Positions 36,506-44,335 of a stretch of 64,000 bases of DNA are shown here, one piece after another. Source of the DNA: Wenjunlia tyrosinilytica (GTDB lineage: Bacteria; Actinomycetota; Actinomycetes; Streptomycetales; Streptomycetaceae); assembly GCF_014646055.1 (NCBI RefSeq), contig NZ_BMMS01000006.1:1-64000 (forward strand), given 5' to 3'. A program made the translations under genes and the position numbers. How positions within the stretch are numbered: the stretch's first letter is position 1; every line of letters starts with the position of its first letter. Below the pieces are notes generated by a model. It did no database searches and had not been told where the DNA came from. It was given only the letters and a program-made list of their open reading frames with translations.

Positions 36506-36781
36506 TCAGTCGAGGGCCGGGAAGTCCCCCAGCTTCACACCCGCCACAAACGCGGTCCACGCTTCGTCAGGAAATGTCAGGGCCGGGCCGTGGGGGTCCT
36601 TGCTGTCCCGGACGGGCACGACGCCGGGGATACCGGGGGCCACCTCGATGCAGTCGCCGCCGTTGTCGCCGCTGTAGCTGCTCTTGCGCCACATCGCCGC
36701 CACCTCGATGCAGTTGCCGCCGTTGGCGCCGCTGTAGCTGCTCTTCCGCCACGTCGCCGCGCTCGGATCGTGGGTGTTCAT
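36506..36781 (-). CDS. DUF397 protein with duplicated N-terminal module
   Basis: 91 residues. The DUF397 signature WRKSSYSGxNGGxCIEVA occurs twice in tandem (about residues 11-28 and 31-48), followed by the usual VPVRDSKDPHGPALTF and WTAFVAGVKLGDF. Normal members have one copy and about 60-80 residues. The extra copy comes from a 60-base tandem duplication. DUF397 proteins pair with WhiJ-type XRE-DUF5753 regulators, and the regulator gene lies directly upstream on the same strand. Its reading frame continues 215 bases into this gene. Confidence 0.9.
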   Translation of the reverse strand: MNTHDPSAATWRKSSYSGANGGNCIEVAAMWRKSSYSGDNGGDCIEVAPGIPGVVPVRDSKDPHGPALTFPDEAWTAFVAGVKLGDFPALD

Positions 36782-37619
36782 GATCGCCGTAACCCTCCAT
36801 CACTTCGCTGATCAGAGCGGCTGATTCAGGGGCCGAGAGTGCGTCCGCCCTGAGCACATCATAGGTCCGTGCGTGCCGGGCGAAGACGGCTGGATCGTCG
36901 CTGAAATGGCCGCGGTCCAGCGATTCCGAGTAGACCCACTCATGCCCGTCGGGCAACGTGATCAGCGACATGGACGTGTTCGGCGGGATCAAGGCCGCGA
37001 CGCCGAACGGTGCCACCTGGATCCGGATGTTCCGCTGCCTGCCCAGGGCCAGCAGATGGGCGCACTGCCCCCGCATCACAGCCGGACCGCCGACCACGCG
37101 CCGGATCGAACCCTCCTCCAGCACCACCACGAGGAGCGGCCCGTCAGGGCTCAGGAAGCGCCGCTGGCGGCTCAATCGGGCCGAGACGCGCTCCTCGACC
37201 AGATCGGCGTCGTCCTTGGTGGCCACCCGTGAGAACAGCGTCCGCGCGTACTCCTCGGTCTGCAACAGACCGGGAATGACCTGGGTTTGATAGACGCGGA
37301 GCCCAACGGTCTCGGCGTCCATGGCCGCACGGCGCCGGAACCAGTCGGGATGCTCGACCGCCGGGTACCAGTCGATGCGGGACCACAGCCGAGCCAGTAT
37401 CCCGCCGGTGTCCAACAGCTCGTCGCAGGTGGCCACAAATGACTGTTGAGGCACCCGCGTTCCGGACTCGATACGCGCGACCAACGACCGATCGCACGGG
37501 ATCCGGCTCGCCAACTTCTCCTGGGACAGCCCTGCCCCGTCGCGCAAATCCCGCAAAACCTCCCCGAACAGTGCGGCTGACGTGGCCGCGGGCCCCGGCT
37601 TGCCGTTACGTCGGCTCAT
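36567..37619 (-). CDS. XRE-DUF5753 regulator (WhiJ-like) with out-of-frame extended tail
   Basis: 350 residues. N-terminal XRE helix-turn-helix (FGEVLRDLRDGAGLSQEKLASRIPCDRSLVARIESG), then the DUF5753 domain (VIPGLLQTEEYARTLF, RLSRQRRFL, IRIQVAPFGV, SMSLITLPDGHEWVYSESL). DUF5753 normally ends near residue 290. Here the frame runs on through the DUF397 gene and adds about 60 Arg/Gln-rich residues (two near-identical 20-residue units), an overprinted tail and not a known domain. A small indel that removed the normal stop is likely. ATG at 37619 follows AGGGGG. Confidence 0.88.
   Translation of the reverse strand: MSRRNGKPGPAATSAALFGEVLRDLRDGAGLSQEKLASRIPCDRSLVARIESGTRVPQQSFVATCDELLDTGGILARLWSRIDWYPAVEHPDWFRRRAAMDAETVGLRVYQTQVIPGLLQTEEYARTLFSRVATKDDADLVEERVSARLSRQRRFLSPDGPLLVVVLEEGSIRRVVGGPAVMRGQCAHLLALGRQRNIRIQVAPFGVAALIPPNTSMSLITLPDGHEWVYSESLDRGHFSDDPAVFARHARTYDVLRADALSAPESAALISEVMEGYGDHEHPRSERGDVAEEQLQRRQRRQLHRGGGDVAQEQLQRRQRRRLHRGGPRYPRRRARPGQQGPPRPGPDIS
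36641..36760. repeat. 60-base tandem duplication, 56/60 identical
   Basis: Unit 1 (36641-36700) and unit 2 (36701-36760) differ at four positions. The length is a multiple of three, so it duplicates 20 codons in both overlapping frames (DUF397 and the XRE tail). Confidence 0.92.
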
Positions 37620-37879
37620 GGCATCCCCCTGTGACAGCCCCTGGCTGGAACGTGTTTTGGCCTTTTGATCGTAGCGCCGGAGAGCGACGCTATGTGTACC
37701 CAACGTCATGGCCCGTTGCGACGGTTTGATCAGCGAGCGGACAACGCGCAAGGGGTGGCCCGGCCATGTCCGGCCGCGTCCGGCCGCGTCCGGGCGGCTC
37801 CACGACGTGGGAACGGCAGACCCCGGCGACCGCGCGACCGGCCCCGGGGCATGGCCACCAGCCAGAAGGAGCTGATGAC

Positions 37880-38206: not shown

Positions 38207-38436
38207 GCGCGCCCGATGGGCTGTGGCCCGCCGCCAGGCAGTCGAGTATGACGATGCGCGTCTACAGCGTGGACCCGGCCACCGGCGAGCGGCGCATCCG
38301 GCGCGCGGTCGCTGTCACCGCGTCGGCGACGACCGGACTCGCCCTCGACCAGCGGTTCCCACCGTGCCGTTGCCCACGCTGCCGCAACGGCCTGCGCCCC
38401 GACGCGACGGCGCAGGCCCCTTTGGGGGCGGAGTGA
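38203..38436 (+). CDS. Small Cys-rich protein, possible zinc knuckle
   Basis: 77 residues from a GTG overlapping the previous stop; its own stop overlaps the next GTG. A beta-rich middle (MTMRVYSVDPATGERRIRRAVAV) is followed by FPPCRCPRCRNGLRP, where CxCxxC could bind zinc with another ligand. Not a family I can name. Its place inside a three-gene overlap chain supports that it is translated. Confidence 0.6.
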   Translation: MSAPDGLWPAARQSSMTMRVYSVDPATGERRIRRAVAVTASATTGLALDQRFPPCRCPRCRNGLRPDATAQAPLGAE

Positions 38437-38819
38437 TCGGCGAAGGCCCGGCGCAACCTTCCGAAGCGCTGAGGTACTTCGGAGAGGTGGCCCGCCACTT
38501 CCGCATCCGTGCGCGGCTGACCCACCAGGAACTGGGAGAGAAGCTGCACTACTCCGCGGGGCTCGTCGGCCATGTCGAGACCGCCACGCGCGTGGCCTCG
38601 GACGAGTACGTGCTACGGCTGGAGGAGGCACTGGGCGCGGGCGGACTCCTGGCCGCGGCGCTGCCGATGCTGGAGGAGGAACGGCACCGGGGCATGCCGG
38701 GCCGGGTGCAGGTCTTCGTCGTCGATGCGACCGCGGAAGAGCTGCCGCCACCGGAGGCGGCCAAACTCCTCAGACGCCTGGCAACCAGCGCAACCCCGCC
38801 CCCGGGCATACGCCGCTGA
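38433..38819 (+). CDS. Short XRE-family DNA-binding protein
   Basis: 128 residues. The helix-turn-helix (ALRYFGEVARHFRIRARLTHQELGEKLHYSAGLVGHVETATR) is of the WhiJ-like XRE type. The DUF5753 domain is absent, replaced by about 50 residues ending in ELPPPEAAKLLRRLA. It may be a truncated derivative or a distinct small regulator. GTG start with GGGGGCG upstream, overlapping the preceding Cys-rich gene, so the three small genes from 37880 form one unit. Confidence 0.82.
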   Translation: MIGEGPAQPSEALRYFGEVARHFRIRARLTHQELGEKLHYSAGLVGHVETATRVASDEYVLRLEEALGAGGLLAAALPMLEEERHRGMPGRVQVFVVDATAEELPPPEAAKLLRRLATSATPPPGIRR

Positions 38820-39796: not shown

Positions 39797-40135
39797 ACAT
39801 GCCCGTTGGCGAAGTCGGACGCGCCCTGGGCGAGGAAGACGGCCACCCTCCGCGGGCATCGTGCCTCACCCGTTCTGTTCGGGGCCGCCAACACCGCGGG
39901 CGGGGGTCCGGGCGAAAATGATTTCTCCGCGGAACCCGGCCGGAGCGGCTCCCGTGGGCGGCGTCGGATCGGAAGGGCAGTTGTTCAGGAAGGTGTTCGG
40001 CCGACGCCTCGGGCTGCTCGCCCTGCTGTGCCCGCCGGCCTATCTCCCAGTCCGCGCGGGTTCTTGACTGGATGGTGGTCGGATGATTTCTCAGAGTTAA
40101 TAACGGGCGCCTTCGATTACACGTGGTGAGTGGTC

Positions 40136-40182
40136 GTGCACGCGCAATCGCCCATGCGAATGCACGTGCACACCGCTATCAT
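40136..40182 (+). promoter_or_regulatory. Promoter with TGCACGTGCA operator for the DUF397 gene
   Basis: TATCAT (40177-40182) is a likely -10 box. The perfect palindrome TGCACGTGCA (40161-40170) lies in the promoter spacer, with a half-site-like GTGCACGCGCA at 40136-40146. The same palindrome recurs at 41261-41270 and within 41331-41350 ahead of the WhiJ-like genes. Confidence 0.7.
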
Positions 40183-40214
40183 CTGAGGTACAGCACGGCA
40201 CCCGGGAGACTCAG

Positions 40215-40451
40215 ATGCGCCCCACGTACAACGGCATGGCCGCCACTGACCTGCGGGGGGTCGTCTGGCAGAAGAGCCGGCGCAGTAACTCGCAGGGGAA
40301 TTGCGTGGAGTTTGCGAAGCTGCCGGACGGCGATGTGGCGGTGCGGAATTCTCGTCACCCCGACGGGCCCGCACTCATCTACACTCGCGCCGAGATCGAG
40401 GCACTCATCCTGGGTGCCAAGGACGGCGATTTCGACGGCCTGGTCCAGTAA
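40215..40451 (+). CDS. DUF397 protein
   Basis: 78 residues. Single DUF397 domain: VVWQKSRRSNSQGNCVEFAKLPDGDVAVRNSRHPDGPALIYTRAEIEALILGAKDGDFD. ATG follows GGGAGACTCAG. In Streptomyces these small proteins are co-selected with WhiJ-type XRE-DUF5753 regulators and antagonise or modulate them. The cognate partners here are likely the ATPase at 40702 and the regulator at 41457, which share its operator sequence. Confidence 0.92.
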   Translation: MRPTYNGMAATDLRGVVWQKSRRSNSQGNCVEFAKLPDGDVAVRNSRHPDGPALIYTRAEIEALILGAKDGDFDGLVQ

Positions 40452-40701
40452 GCGGCGCCGGCGCCGACGGTAAGCCCATGCCGAGCACGGGCTGAAGTTC
40501 GCCCTGAGCAGGGCGAGGGACGGCCGGTGCGGCAGTCGGCGGTGGTACTCGGCGGTGGCACAGTGCTGGGCCGCACTCCCCACGCGCGAGCCCGCGCGCA
40601 CCCAAGGGCACGCCTCCCCGATTCGCGAACTCCGCGCCCATCGCCGGTGCCGGCCACGTGGGGCTCCGCGCTCATGAATGGGGAGGTGTGCGTTCCTTGG
40701 G

Positions 40702-41223
40702 TTACACCGCCACCTGGGTGGTCGGACCGGACAGGTCGTCGTCGCCCGAGTGGAACAGCGCCCAGACGATCTTCCCGGCTCCCGCGAGCGGGTGCCAGCC
40801 CCAGGTGTCACTGAACGAGTCGACGAGGTGCAGTCCGCGTCCCGACTCCGATATGTAGTCGGGCTCCTTCGACACCGGTCCCTGGTCGCTGGGGTCGCGC
40901 ACGGCGCAGACCACCCGCGACGCCTTGCGTATGAGACACAGTTGTATAGGGGCCCCCGGGTGCGAGGGCCCCTGCGACATGCCGTGCCGCAGGGCGTTGG
41001 TGACCAGCTCGGAGGCCACGAGGGCCACCGAGTCGAAGAGCTCGGCGAGGTTCCAGCGTCGCAACGTCGTCATCGCGAAGTCCCTCGCGTCCTTGACCGC
41101 TTCGAACCGCGGCGGGAGCTCGAACTCACAGGAGATGGAGACGGCGCCCGGCGCCTCGAACTCCGCGGACGCGAGCAGTTCTTGCCATAACGGCTCGAGA
41201 ACTACAGAGCCTCCAGTCCCCAT
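40702..41223 (-). CDS. RsbW-like ATP-binding protein (HATPase_c_2)
   Basis: 173 residues. Serine-kinase-type ATPase fold: FAMTTLRRWNL, N-box VALVASELVTNALRHG, the DPSD element (CAVRDPSDQGP) and the G-box SESGRGLHLVDSFSDTWGW. It is of the anti-sigma-factor-like group that accompanies WhiJ/DUF397 modules in Streptomyces, acting by protein-protein binding in the cytoplasm. ATG at 41223 follows GGGGTG; frames reaching further upstream cross the operator array and are rejected. Divergent from the XRE gene. Confidence 0.9.
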   Translation of the reverse strand: MGTGGSVVLEPLWQELLASAEFEAPGAVSISCEFELPPRFEAVKDARDFAMTTLRRWNLAELFDSVALVASELVTNALRHGMSQGPSHPGAPIQLCLIRKASRVVCAVRDPSDQGPVSKEPDYISESGRGLHLVDSFSDTWGWHPLAGAGKIVWALFHSGDDDLSGPTTQVAV

Positions 41224-41259
41224 GTGCAGCACCCCGTGTGATCGCAAGTGATCGTGCAA

Positions 41260-41271
41260 GTGCACGTGCAC
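41260..41271. promoter_or_regulatory. Perfect palindrome GTGCACGTGCAC
   Basis: A 12-base perfect palindrome 37 bases upstream of the ATPase gene start, preceded by GTGCAA (41254-41259), a further half-site-like element. Its core is identical to the palindrome ahead of the DUF397 gene. Confidence 0.75.
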
Positions 41272-41330
41272 CATCCTCCCCAACGCGCACAGCAGATGCA
41301 AGAGCGGATTCCCGTGCATGAGGCGCCAAG

Positions 41331-41350
41331 GCAAATGCACGTGCATTTGC
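41331..41350. promoter_or_regulatory. Perfect 20-base palindrome GCAAATGCACGTGCATTTGC
   Basis: It lies about 107 bases before the XRE start and directly upstream of TAATCT (41362-41367), a possible -10 box, so bound protein would block RNA polymerase. An extra GTGCAC lies at 41353-41358. It shares the ATGCACGTGCA core with the other two sites. Confidence 0.8.
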
Positions 41351-41456
41351 ATGTGCACTGGTAATCTTTGTGTGGCCGGACCCGCACTCTTCGCAGCACC
41401 GGGGTGGCACACTGTGCCTGATGGCTTGAGGACGCAGGGGGAGGAGGTTCACGAGG

Positions 41457-42323
41457 ATGAGCACAGTGCAGCCCGGCGGCGGGTCGATGGTGCGCCGTAT
41501 CCTTCTCGGCTCCCAACTGCGGCGATTGCGTGAATCCAAGGGCATCACACGCGAGGAGGCCGGGTACTCCATCCGCGGCTCCGAGTCGAAGATCAGTCGT
41601 ATGGAGCTCGGGCGGGTGAGCTTCAAAGAGCGCGACGTGGCCGATCTCCTCACCCTCTACGGTGTGACGGACGACACAGAGCGCTCAGCCCTGCTTGGAC
41701 TCGCGCGCGAGGCGAACGCGGCCGGCTGGTGGCACAGCTACGGCGATGTCCTGCCGAGCTGGTTCCAGACCTACGTGGGTCTGGAGGAGGCCGCCTCGCT
41801 CATCCGCACCTACGAGGTCCAGTTCGTCCCCGGCCTGCTGCAGACCGAGGACTACGCGCGTACCGTCACCATGCTCGGCCAGCCCGCCGCACCCTCGGAG
41901 GAGATAGAGCGCCGGGTCGCCCTGCGGATGCAGCGGCAGAAGCTGCTCGTCTCCGAGCGCGCCCCGAAGCTGTGGGCGGTCATCGACGAGGCCGCGCTGC
42001 GCCGTCCGCTCGGCGGGCGCAAGGTGATGCGCGCTCAGGTCGAGCGGCTCGTGGAGCTCACCGACCAGGCGGGAGTCACGATCCAGGTGATGCCGTTCCA
42101 GTTCGGCGGGCACGCGGCCGAGGGCGGCGCGTTCTCGATCCTGCGCTTCCCCGAGCAGGACTTGCCGGACGTGGTCTACCTCGAACAGCTCACCAGCGCC
42201 CTGTATCTCGACAAGCGTGACGACGTGGACCAGTACAGCCAGGCCATGGAGCGGCTGTGCGTGGACAGCCTCGCCCCCGACCGGACGGTCTCCCTGCTGA
42301 GCCGGATCGCCAAGGAGTTCTAG
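41457..42323 (+). CDS. XRE-DUF5753 regulator (WhiJ-like), copy A
   Basis: 288 residues. Helix-turn-helix ILLGSQLRRLRESKGITREE ... SESKISRMELGRVSFKERDVADLL. Then DUF5753: WFQTYVGLEEAASLIRTYEVQFVPGLLQTEDYARTV, RMQRQKLL, VTIQVMPFQFGGH, FPEQDLPDVVYLEQLTSALYLDKRDDVDQY. Sporulation-related WhiJ has this form. It is divergent from an RsbW-like gene and near a DUF397 gene, completing the usual three-part module, and probably binds the GTGCAC-type palindromes. Strong GGAGG and CGAGG upstream of the ATG. Confidence 0.93.
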   Translation: MSTVQPGGGSMVRRILLGSQLRRLRESKGITREEAGYSIRGSESKISRMELGRVSFKERDVADLLTLYGVTDDTERSALLGLAREANAAGWWHSYGDVLPSWFQTYVGLEEAASLIRTYEVQFVPGLLQTEDYARTVTMLGQPAAPSEEIERRVALRMQRQKLLVSERAPKLWAVIDEAALRRPLGGRKVMRAQVERLVELTDQAGVTIQVMPFQFGGHAAEGGAFSILRFPEQDLPDVVYLEQLTSALYLDKRDDVDQYSQAMERLCVDSLAPDRTVSLLSRIAKEF

Positions 42324-42490
42324 CCCCGGTCCCCTCCCGAGGCAGGCGCGGCGGCCTCTTCGGGGGATTCGGGCTTTCGGGGGAGATCGGCGCACAACAC
42401 ATCCTCCATGCCGTCAATCCGACTACCGGTGTGGCACGCTCCAGCCATCCCCTTCTGGAAAGGGCGGCGCCGGGCTCAGCGGTCGCCGCG

Positions 42491-43291
42491 TCAGCCGGAA
42501 CGTTTCCTCCCCCAGGCCGTGACCATGAACACCGGCACATAGGAAGACTCGGGACGCTCCATCAGAGCGATCGCCTCGTCCACCTCCGCGTCGTTGAGGA
42601 TTCCCGTGCCCACCAGCCTGGGGCGCAGGTGCTGGAGCGTCAGCGGCATGAAGGAGTCGCCACCCGGGATGACCGGCGAGTGCACATCCGCGCCGATCTC
42701 CTCGAGCCCCGCCTCGGCGAGCAGCCCCGTCAACCGCCGTCCGATGCCCGGGTCGACCCCGAGACCGGCGAACTGCGCCTCCATCGCTCTGCCGACCCTC
42801 TCCCCCAACTGCCGGTGCTCCGGCGGGTAGTAGCGGGCGGCGGCGGTCGCCATGGGACCGGCGATGTCGAAGTCCTCGACGACCATCCAGCCGCCGGGCC
42901 GGGTGGCGGCCGCCATCCGCTCCATGGCCTCCTTCTCCCGCCCCGGCTGGTGCCCGACGACGGCCCGTGCGTGGACCATGTCGAAGGCGGCGTCCGGGAG
43001 GGGATCGCCGAGCAGGTCGTGCTCGCGAACCTCGAGCTGCCGCAGCCCGTGCCCGACGGCGAACCTGGTGTCGATGTCGACGGCGAGCACATGTCCCGCC
43101 GGGCCCGCCCGTTCGGCCATCCACCGGGCCATACTGCCCGCGCCCGCGCCCACTTCGAGGCAGTGCGCACCCTCGCCGAGGCCGAGCAGATCCAGCCGTG
43201 TGCGCGACTGCGGATCGTAGACATTCTCCAGGGCCCGCAGTCGCTCGAGCTCACGTTCCCACGATTGGTTGAAGACGTAAGCGCTTTCCAC
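42491..43291 (-). CDS. SAM-dependent class I methyltransferase
   Basis: 266 residues from a GTG with GGGGAG six bases ahead. SAM-binding motif I CLEVGAGAGSMARWMAER (near residue 45), motif II-like HVLAVDIDTRF, and post-motifs FDMVHARAVVGHQP and GGWMVVEDFD. Substrate unknown. It lies between two paralogous WhiJ-like regulators and is divergent from copy B, sharing its promoter region with an inverted repeat, so copy B may regulate it. Confidence 0.9.
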   Translation of the reverse strand: MESAYVFNQSWERELERLRALENVYDPQSRTRLDLLGLGEGAHCLEVGAGAGSMARWMAERAGPAGHVLAVDIDTRFAVGHGLRQLEVREHDLLGDPLPDAAFDMVHARAVVGHQPGREKEAMERMAAATRPGGWMVVEDFDIAGPMATAAARYYPPEHRQLGERVGRAMEAQFAGLGVDPGIGRRLTGLLAEAGLEEIGADVHSPVIPGGDSFMPLTLQHLRPRLVGTGILNDAEVDEAIALMERPESSYVPVFMVTAWGRKRSG

Positions 43292-43357: not shown

Positions 43358-43468
43358 CCCGAACCTGTGTGCGGGGATGGCCGTTTCGGTCCTTTCGAGG
43401 GTGCCGCCATGCACGCTCAGGCGCCAGGTGGTGGCAGACTGCGACCGGCGCACAGGGCGGAGGGCGGG

Positions 43469-44335
43469 ATGGGCAGCGTGCAATCGAGCGGTAGTTCGAC
43501 GGTTCGCCGTATCCTCCTCGGGTCCCAACTGCGGCGGCTTCGCGAGGCCAAGGGCATCACGCGCGAGGACGCCGGCTACTCGATCCGCGCCTCCGAGTCC
43601 AAGATCAGCCGTATGGAGCTGGGCCGCGTGGGCTTCAAGGAGCGGGACGTCGCAGACCTGTTGAGTCTCTACGGCGTCCACGACGACACCGAGCGCAGGG
43701 CGCTCATCGGCCTGGCCCGCGAGGCCAGCAGCGCGGGCTGGTGGCACTCGTACACCGATGTCCTGCCGCACTGGTTCCAGACGTATGTGGGTCTGGAGGA
43801 GGCCGCCGGCCTCATCCGAACGTATGAAGTCCAGTACGTTCCCGGGCTTCTCCAGACCGCCGACTACGCCCGCGCGGTGATCTCCCTCGGCCAGCCCGAC
43901 GCCACCGCCGAGGAAGTGGAGCGCCGGGTCTCCCTGCGGATGCAGCGGCAGAAGCTGCTCCTGTCGGAGCGGGCGCCGCGGTACCACGCGGTGATCGACG
44001 AGGCCGCGCTGCGCCGTCCGATCGGCGGGGAGAACGTGATGTGCGGCCAGGTCGAACGCCTCGTCGACATGGCCCGGCATCCCCATGTCACCATCCAGGT
44101 GATGCCGTTCTCCTTCGGCGGCCACTCCGGCGAGTGCGGTGCCTTCACCGTCCTCAGCTTCCCTCAGGACGACCTCCCGGACATCGCCTATCTCGAGCAG
44201 CTCACCGGGGCGATGTATCTGGACAAGCCGGAGGACGTGAACCAGTACTCCAGGGCGATGGAGCGGCTGCGCGCGCAGAGCGAGACCCGCGAGCAGACGC
44301 TCGAGGCGCTCGCCAAGATCGTACAACTTCCTTGA
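43469..44335 (+). CDS. XRE-DUF5753 regulator (WhiJ-like), copy B
   Basis: 288 residues, collinear with copy A over the whole length (ILLGSQLRRLREAKGITRED, WFQTYVGLEEAAGLIRTYEVQYVPGLLQT, RMQRQKLLLSERAPR, VTIQVMPFSFGGHSGECGAFTVLSFPQDDLPDIAYLEQLTGAMYLDK), so the two are close paralogs. It lacks an adjacent DUF397 or RsbW-like gene. ATG at 43469 follows GGAGGG at good spacing. The ALDH remnant starts 33 bases after its stop. Confidence 0.92.
   Translation: MGSVQSSGSSTVRRILLGSQLRRLREAKGITREDAGYSIRASESKISRMELGRVGFKERDVADLLSLYGVHDDTERRALIGLAREASSAGWWHSYTDVLPHWFQTYVGLEEAAGLIRTYEVQYVPGLLQTADYARAVISLGQPDATAEEVERRVSLRMQRQKLLLSERAPRYHAVIDEAALRRPIGGENVMCGQVERLVDMARHPHVTIQVMPFSFGGHSGECGAFTVLSFPQDDLPDIAYLEQLTGAMYLDKPEDVNQYSRAMERLRAQSETREQTLEALAKIVQLP

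Follow-up and report, generated by a model that had tools for sequence, protein, structure and literature searches.

Paralogues of BldB, WhiJ, and AbaA are numerous and developmentally important in streptomycetes. The biochemical function of BldB was called unknown in a 2023 paper (PMC10294661). In the literature consulted, the kind of operator that WhiJ-type regulators use is known from one mapped example, WhiJ9 of Streptomyces venezuelae. In the passages of the 2023 paper that deal with it, WhiJ9 is reported to bind three 10-bp direct repeats (CGXXCTCAAC) located 113 bp upstream of the start of its target and to be required for iosA activation when bldB is mutated; control of abaA paralogues by a neighbouring WhiJ protein is put forward there as a speculation of the authors (PMC10294661). 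An earlier model (Ainsa 2010), described in passages of PMC6262351 and PMC4255298, presents WhiJ as a repressor.

Two further systems are close in gene content. In the SCO3421-SCO3424 cluster of Streptomyces coelicolor, according to the passages that describe it, SCO3421 is a WhiJ-like protein found in nearly all complex actinomycetes, SCO3423 is AbaA-like and contains a TTA codon in Streptomycineae but not in other groups (PMC4255298, PMC6767563, PMC1934918), and SCO3424 is a BldB paralogue (PMC1934918, PMC6767563). SCO1979 (Zhu et al., 2020) is cited in the text of PMC12565409 as an example of a regulator that binds upstream of its own gene. No operator was found in the passages that describe SCO3421, SCO3423, and SCO3424 or SCO1978-SCO1980.

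Here, we analyzed a 64,000-nt stretch of Wenjunlia DNA (the window), in which an earlier note had drawn attention to a palindrome shared by three neighbouring genes. We conclude that this palindrome, TGCACGTGCA, is probably the invariant core of a WhiJ-type operator, an array of TGCANN words in the promoters of a HATPase gene and a DUF397 gene that the XRE-type regulator encoded beside them would bind and activate. The sites, their conservation, their register with promoter elements, and their association with one subfamily of XRE proteins are properties of the sequences themselves; binding is suggested by a switch of operator between paralogous subfamilies, and activation by what is described for WhiJ9 and by the position of the core.

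Like WhiJ9/BldB9/iosA, as described in PMC10294661, the Wenjunlia locus combines a WhiJ-type XRE regulator with an adjacent DUF397 gene, a divergent effector gene, and a repeat operator in the intergenic region. Unlike the CGXXCTCAAC direct repeats of WhiJ9 (PMC10294661), which the operators of the window do not match when compared by eye, the putative operator is a 6-bp TGCANN array that touches the -35 element, and the DUF397 promoter appears to be a target as well. The TGCA array thus differs from the one mapped example, and it comes with a contrast between paralogues. We found no published report that links TGCACGTGCA with Streptomyces, and the string "TGCA" does not occur in the main text of PMC12565409; the motif may have been published in the SCO1979 study or in the supplementary motif table of PMC12565409.

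Results

Three Copies of One Palindrome at a WhiJ-Type Locus

The DUF397 (BldB-like) gene, of 78 aa, lies at 40215-40451 on the forward strand (Pfam PF04149, 71 bits). On the reverse strand, at 40702-41223, lies the 173-aa HATPase_c_2 (AbaA-like, RsbW-type) gene (PF13581, 50.8 bits), whose product reaches only 31.9 bits against the RsbA model (cut-off 210). The forward-strand gene at 41457-42323 encodes a 288-aa XRE-DUF5753 (WhiJ-type) regulator (HTH_31, PF13560, and DUF5753, PF19054), our proposed operator reader, which scores 430.1 bits against NCBIfam NF058600, the Sco1979 family (cut-off 350). Pfam thus bears out the three protein classes named in the earlier note (DUF397, RsbW-like ATPase, and XRE-DUF5753) and, with them, its description of the locus as WhiJ-type.

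A second forward-strand XRE-DUF5753 gene, 73% identical to the first, is located at 43469-44335; its reader helix is almost identical, but no exact copy of the operator lies at it, and it groups with a second XRE gene of Wenjunlia vitaminophila in a tree computed without L093 and L094. Elsewhere in the window, the segments 36506-37751 and 38223-38819 hold a further XRE-DUF5753 gene, a reverse-strand DUF397 gene, and an HTH_31 protein nearby, and no exact TGCACGTGCA. None of the three proteins of the locus had a sequence match among solved structures at E ≤ 0.01. When the XRE protein was modelled with AlphaFold2 (pLDDT 85.5), nothing in the PDB matched the model at E ≤ 0.001; the top matches were mostly HTH domains of other XRE-type proteins, with 3pxp, a fatty-acid-binding MmyB-like regulator, as a weak match (E 0.03) on which we place no weight.

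Exact copies of TGCACGTGCA are present in the window at 40161-40170, 41261-41270, and 41336-41345, just where the earlier note had placed them. Dinucleotide shuffling of the window gave a mean of 0.06 copies and a maximum of 1, and none of 100 shuffles gave three. The third copy is the center of a perfect 20-base palindrome, GCAAATGCACGTGCATTTGC (41331-41350); in the sister species (L020), conservation at this position is limited to the inner 10 bases. This longer palindrome was also confirmed, as were the further GTGCAC half-sites, at 40136, 40166, 41260, 41266, and 41353.

In the whole genome (8.49 Mb, 172 contigs), eight exact copies of TGCACGTGCA were found. Since a reversed-pattern control is equally frequent (also eight copies), the word is not enriched genome-wide; it is the clustering alone, with three of the eight copies within 1.2 kb at the WhiJ-type locus, that makes it unusual in this genome. 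Three of the other five copies lie within long high-GC3 open frames, one in a region of short ORFs, and one just upstream of the start of a gene that we take, from its translation, to be dxr-like. The palindrome is therefore not frequent in unrelated promoters, as the reading of the earlier note implied: among its eight genomic copies, one of the five outside the locus is possibly promoter-proximal. The genome has 13 DUF5753 matches, and the 12 outside this locus have no copy less than 1.5 kb away. Across 101 genomes of the family, TGCACGTGCA is usually rarer than its reversed control, and with the equal counts in the genome itself there is no sign of a genome-wide TGCACGTGCA regulon. The word TGCANNTGCANNTGCA occurs four times in the genome, three of them at this locus, and its reversed control once.

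Conservation of the Core across Homologous Loci

Homologous loci were chosen from the GTDB genome set by the XRE protein alone. The best 80 of 180 confirmed relatives were kept, 79 of them distinct, with XRE proteins 66-89% identical to that of the window. They represent three families (Streptomycetaceae, Thermomonosporaceae, and Streptosporangiaceae) and the genera Streptomyces, Kitasatospora, Actinacidiphila, Embleya, Wenjunlia, Actinomadura, Streptosporangium, Sphaerisporangium, and Nonomuraea. Exact TGCACGTGCA is present in all 79 loci kept from these best 80 of 180 relatives, and in 76 of the 79 an exact core lies at most 300 bp upstream of the start of the XRE match. According to tblastn, 78 loci have a HATPase match (L036 has none) and 70 have a DUF397 match. 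In 51 of these 70, DUF397 has its own core at most 220 bp upstream, and in the remaining 19 it lies directly behind XRE without a core of its own; the other 9 loci gave no DUF397 match. In L036, DUF397 stands behind XRE, yet has its own core.

In three loci, XRE is no longer beside the other genes (L012, L017, and L018, the latter two being identical contigs); cores remain at HATPase and at DUF397 there, and none is found at XRE. We therefore conclude that the operator follows the HATPase and DUF397 genes. In two other arrangements (L131/L183, which are one locus, and L171), the core lies between HATPase and DUF397. Hence the earlier proposal that the XRE protein controls all three promoters stands in part: the HATPase and DUF397 promoters are predicted to be conserved targets, but the XRE promoter is not, and for most lineages we reject it as a conserved target, given the lack of a core at the moved XRE genes.

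To find loci independently of the protein, 101 family genomes were scanned with the pattern core-N7-TTGC. It matched 68 places in 57 genomes, compared with 24 places for a reversed control; the 44 genomes from which it is absent include that of the window, which has N1 in place of N7. At least two of the three genes were present in 29 of the 30 loci fetched, the exception being L121.

As a separate observation, at least ten loci from S. lavendulae-like Streptomyces, in which DUF397 and HATPase converge, contain an extra TGCACGTGCA between the two genes, immediately next to an inverted repeat that resembles a hairpin (L035, position 4012; L040, 3945; L042, 4042; L065, 4029; and similar loci).

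The Core Is Part of a 6-bp TGCA Array in Register with Promoter Elements

The spacing of TGCA words was analyzed in 20 representative intergenic regions with less than 70% identity around the core, drawn from the 76. Spacings of 6, 12, 18, and 24 bp occurred 32, 28, 29, and 9 times, respectively, versus about 0.2 times each in first-order random sequences. The core contributes one 6-bp pair by its very sequence, so the words outside it are more telling: 35 of the 51 TGCA words within 42 bp are in 6-bp phase in these representatives, versus 18% expected. We have replaced the simple isolated palindrome by a 6-bp-phased TGCA array. The sites that the earlier note saw ahead of the three genes are real, but they are parts of such arrays, and the one at 41336 does not overlap the element that is likely to be the XRE promoter but ends ~60 bp before it. 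The commonest layout is TGCACGTGCA-N7-(T/A)TGCAN, with the hexamer as the -35 element, followed by N17 and a -10 element; this layout centers the core near -47 and has a TGCA hexamer serve as the -35.

Upstream of the HATPase gene, the array TGCAAGTGCACGTGCA (41255-41270) contains the second exact palindrome (41261-41270), and a -35-like TTGCAC (41259-41254, reverse strand) begins one base after the core (N1). At N17 from TTGCAC, the window shows no recognisable -10, and a sigma-70 scan of 39900-42500 returned 0 promoters. In the 76 homologous HATPase promoters, the distance from the nearest core to TTGC(A/G) is N7 in 61, N8 in 8, N1 in 5, and N20 in 2.

Codon 12 of the HATPase gene is a bldA-type TTA (leucine) codon (41188-41190, reverse strand). 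Of 78 homologous HATPase genes, 41 share this TTA at codon 12, counted over whole open frames; its carriers are Streptomycetaceae plus two records without a family name (L052 and L079). Ten Streptomycetaceae loci do not have it (L012, L017, L018, L029, L030, L031, L037, L038, L048, and L059). Outside Streptomycetaceae, L077 and L078 alone have a TTA inside the HATPase gene, at positions other than codon 12, and six open frames carry TTA upstream of the matched part. The SCO3421-SCO3424 cluster, as it is described in the passages cited above, has the same kinds of genes, a similar spread, and a similar TTA habit. On these features, the locus is probably of the SCO3421 type of WhiJ, a likeness drawn from that description.

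At the DUF397 promoter, a degenerate core, TGCACGCGCA (40137-40146), stands 7 bp before a -35-like ATGCGA (40154-40159, forward strand), which is in turn 17 bp before a -10-like TATCAT (40177-40182, forward strand; TATSAT in most homologues). This register, core-N7-(-35-like), is the commonest in homologous promoters. In the window, the spacer between the two elements is filled by the first exact palindrome (40161-40170). The 51 loci and the window together provide 52 core-bearing DUF397 promoters, of which 36 have ATGCAT, ATGCAG, or ATGCAC at the -35-like place. The distance from the core end to TAT(C/G)AT is a multiple of 6 (6, 24, 30, 42, or 66) in 42 of the 52; the exceptions are a spacing of 7 or 31 (1 mod 6) in 7 and the absence of TATSAT in 3. 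In L133 and L134, which were found by pattern, the separate DUF397 promoter consists of a degenerate TGCA array before TATSAT, with no exact core.

Toward the XRE gene, the 20-bp palindrome and two further TGCA words occupy 41331-41357, with the third exact palindrome at 41336-41345; this palindrome ends ~60 bp upstream of TGGCACACT (41405-41413, forward strand), which we read as the likely extended -10 of the XRE gene. Of 76 loci, 66 have TGRCASACT between the HATPase and XRE genes. Among the loci examined, a second core toward XRE is restricted to Wenjunlia and Kitasatospora (the window, L020, and L009-L011), apart from the deviant L036; in the two genera, it stands upstream of the extended -10-like element. 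Elements resembling TGGCANACT precede both XRE genes of the window (41405-41413 and 43432-43440), as they do the XRE gene at 66 of the 76 homologous loci, and are likely to represent a shared extended -10 of WhiJ-type regulator genes.

Putative Operator and Recognition Helix Change Together

The NF058600 model was searched against 41 family genomes, where it matched many members, and 30 loci were fetched, the best per genome (L155-L184; L182 is the window). The window XRE protein scores above the cut-off of this family, and the high-scoring loci likewise contain HATPase, XRE, and DUF397 genes. An exact core anywhere in the ~3-3.8-kb locus was found in 11 of 13 loci with 63-100% XRE identity and in none of 17 loci with 44-51%. 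Conversely, TCTG-N6..8-CAGA was present at most 420 bp upstream of XRE in 16 of the 17 and in none of the 13. All 16 palindromes (L155-L169 and L174) have N7, and L170 has no palindrome. The two exceptions among the 13 are L175, with a degenerate array only, and L172, which has the genes of the subfamily and no core. Fisher tests of the association with subfamily gave 1.4e-6 for the core and 1.2e-7 for the TCTG palindrome, values to be read in light of the fact that the loci are related and that the second word was found on the same loci.

The recognition-helix region reads IRxSxxKISRxELGR in the 63-100% set (HPKISR in L175) and V-x-x-A/T-T-I/V-R-R-M-E in the 44-51% set; the reader segments IRASESKISRMELGR and DVTHATIRRMEKAE set the two subfamilies apart. 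This joint switch of helix and operator points to the XRE protein as the predicted reader more strongly than anything else in the sequences, and we regard the 41457-42323 product as very probably the protein that reads the TGCA operator. TCTG-N7-CAGA is likely to be the SCO1979-type subfamily's own operator. The highest-scoring NF058600 loci, which also have a divergent HATPase gene, differ from the window in having XRE followed by DUF397, the other helix, TCTG-N7-CAGA (in 16/17), and no TGCACGTGCA; because of this difference in gene order and operator, we did not assign the XRE protein of the window as the SCO1979 orthologue.

Two paralogues in the same genome are a caveat to the evidence from the switch: one on contig C22, which is 62% identical, has much the same helix, and has no site, and the one at 43469-44335, of which the same holds at 73% identity. 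Both may act in trans on the operators described here, and the 43469-44335 product possibly competes for these sites.

Discussion

In the mechanism that we favor, the XRE protein would bind the TGCANN arrays at the HATPase and DUF397 promoters and, by analogy with WhiJ9, act mainly as an activator of weak promoters. We infer activation because of the WhiJ9 precedent and because the core lies near -47, beside a weak -35. The DUF397 protein would hold the XRE protein back, as the analogy with WhiJ9 and BldB suggests, creating a negative feedback loop. The HATPase product would then act on a downstream partner, for which its fold family allows the guess of a sigma or anti-sigma type; TTA codon 12 may also make its translation dependent on bldA. 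Transcription of the XRE gene itself probably starts from a promoter of its own, of the extended -10 type, to which the additional core found upstream in Wenjunlia and Kitasatospora may bring autoregulation.

The same operators could also serve a classical repressor and autorepressor that is relieved by DUF397 or by a ligand, as in the WhiJ model of Ainsa 2010. We hold this to be possible, though on balance doubtful. The spacer between -35 and -10 is a place typical of repression, and since the exact palindrome sits there at the DUF397 promoter of the window, repression is possible at that promoter especially. Most homologous promoters, however, have the core near -47, upstream of a weak TTGCRN -35, which is the usual place of an activator. 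Published data, in the passages that report them, can likewise be cited for both signs: a whiJ deletion is described as suppressing the phenotype of a DUF397-gene mutant, and loss of WhiJ9 increases whiJ9 transcription 2-fold, consistent with autorepression, but the >790-fold rise of the WhiJ9 target in a bldB mutant requires WhiJ9 (PMC10294661). Activation by the XRE protein remains our preferred reading.

If the palindromes were instead sites of another conserved factor that co-regulates the locus, one candidate would be a Crp-type reader of GTG-N6-CAC, a motif that GTGCACGTGCAC at 41260-41271 fits. We consider such a factor improbable: GTGCACGTGCAC is present in only 5 of 76 HATPase-XRE intergenic regions, and the Crp-type site was rejected for this lack of conservation in the flanks; moreover, the site tracks the XRE subfamily, with another palindrome taking over where the reader helix differs, and TGCACGTGCA is rare elsewhere in the genome, mostly in open frames. 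More improbable still is a type II toxin-antitoxin module of XRE and DUF397 with autoregulatory operators. Such pairs have been predicted as toxin-antitoxin systems, as cited in passages of PMC6262351 and PMC10364602, but overexpression of 14 DUF397 relatives caused no clear toxicity in the published account, and the main conserved target appears to be the HATPase promoter, not an XRE-DUF397 operon. PADLOC gave no match for the three proteins, and both the toxin-antitoxin and the defence readings were rejected. We give the least credence to the idea that the conserved elements work at the level of RNA, as hairpins or terminators; it would suit the S. lavendulae-like loci, where the additional copy abuts the hairpin-like repeat between the convergent 3′ ends of DUF397 and HATPase, but at promoters the copies form TGCA arrays whose register with the -35 and -10 elements is fixed, and a terminator scan of 39900-42500 found none.

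The TGCA site, read as an operator of the XRE protein, fits the published speculation about abaA paralogues, with a different operator. An operator conserved in three families and fixed in its register with the promoter, together with the pairing of helix and operator, makes WhiJ control of abaA paralogues testable with short oligonucleotides and opens a route to operator assignment for other WhiJ clades. The co-conserved TTA codon would give the HATPase two controls, a transcriptional one through WhiJ and a translational one through bldA.

As a tentative generalization, in which we place rather limited confidence, the many WhiJ paralogues within a single actinomycete could be parallel circuits with private operators set by the HTH helix (a TGCANN array in SCO3421-type circuits, TCTG-N7-CAGA in those of the SCO1979 type, and other repeats elsewhere), each driving its own abaA-like and bldB-like partners. 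The SCO3421 type would oligomerise on a 6-bp lattice that includes the -35, so that operator length would set promoter strength, and hetero-oligomers of DUF397 proteins would cross-connect the circuits.

In another WhiJ clade (represented by L093; 16 of 41 genomes matched), CTAC-type repeats were seen by eye upstream of XRE in L135, L136, L137, L139, L141, and L151.
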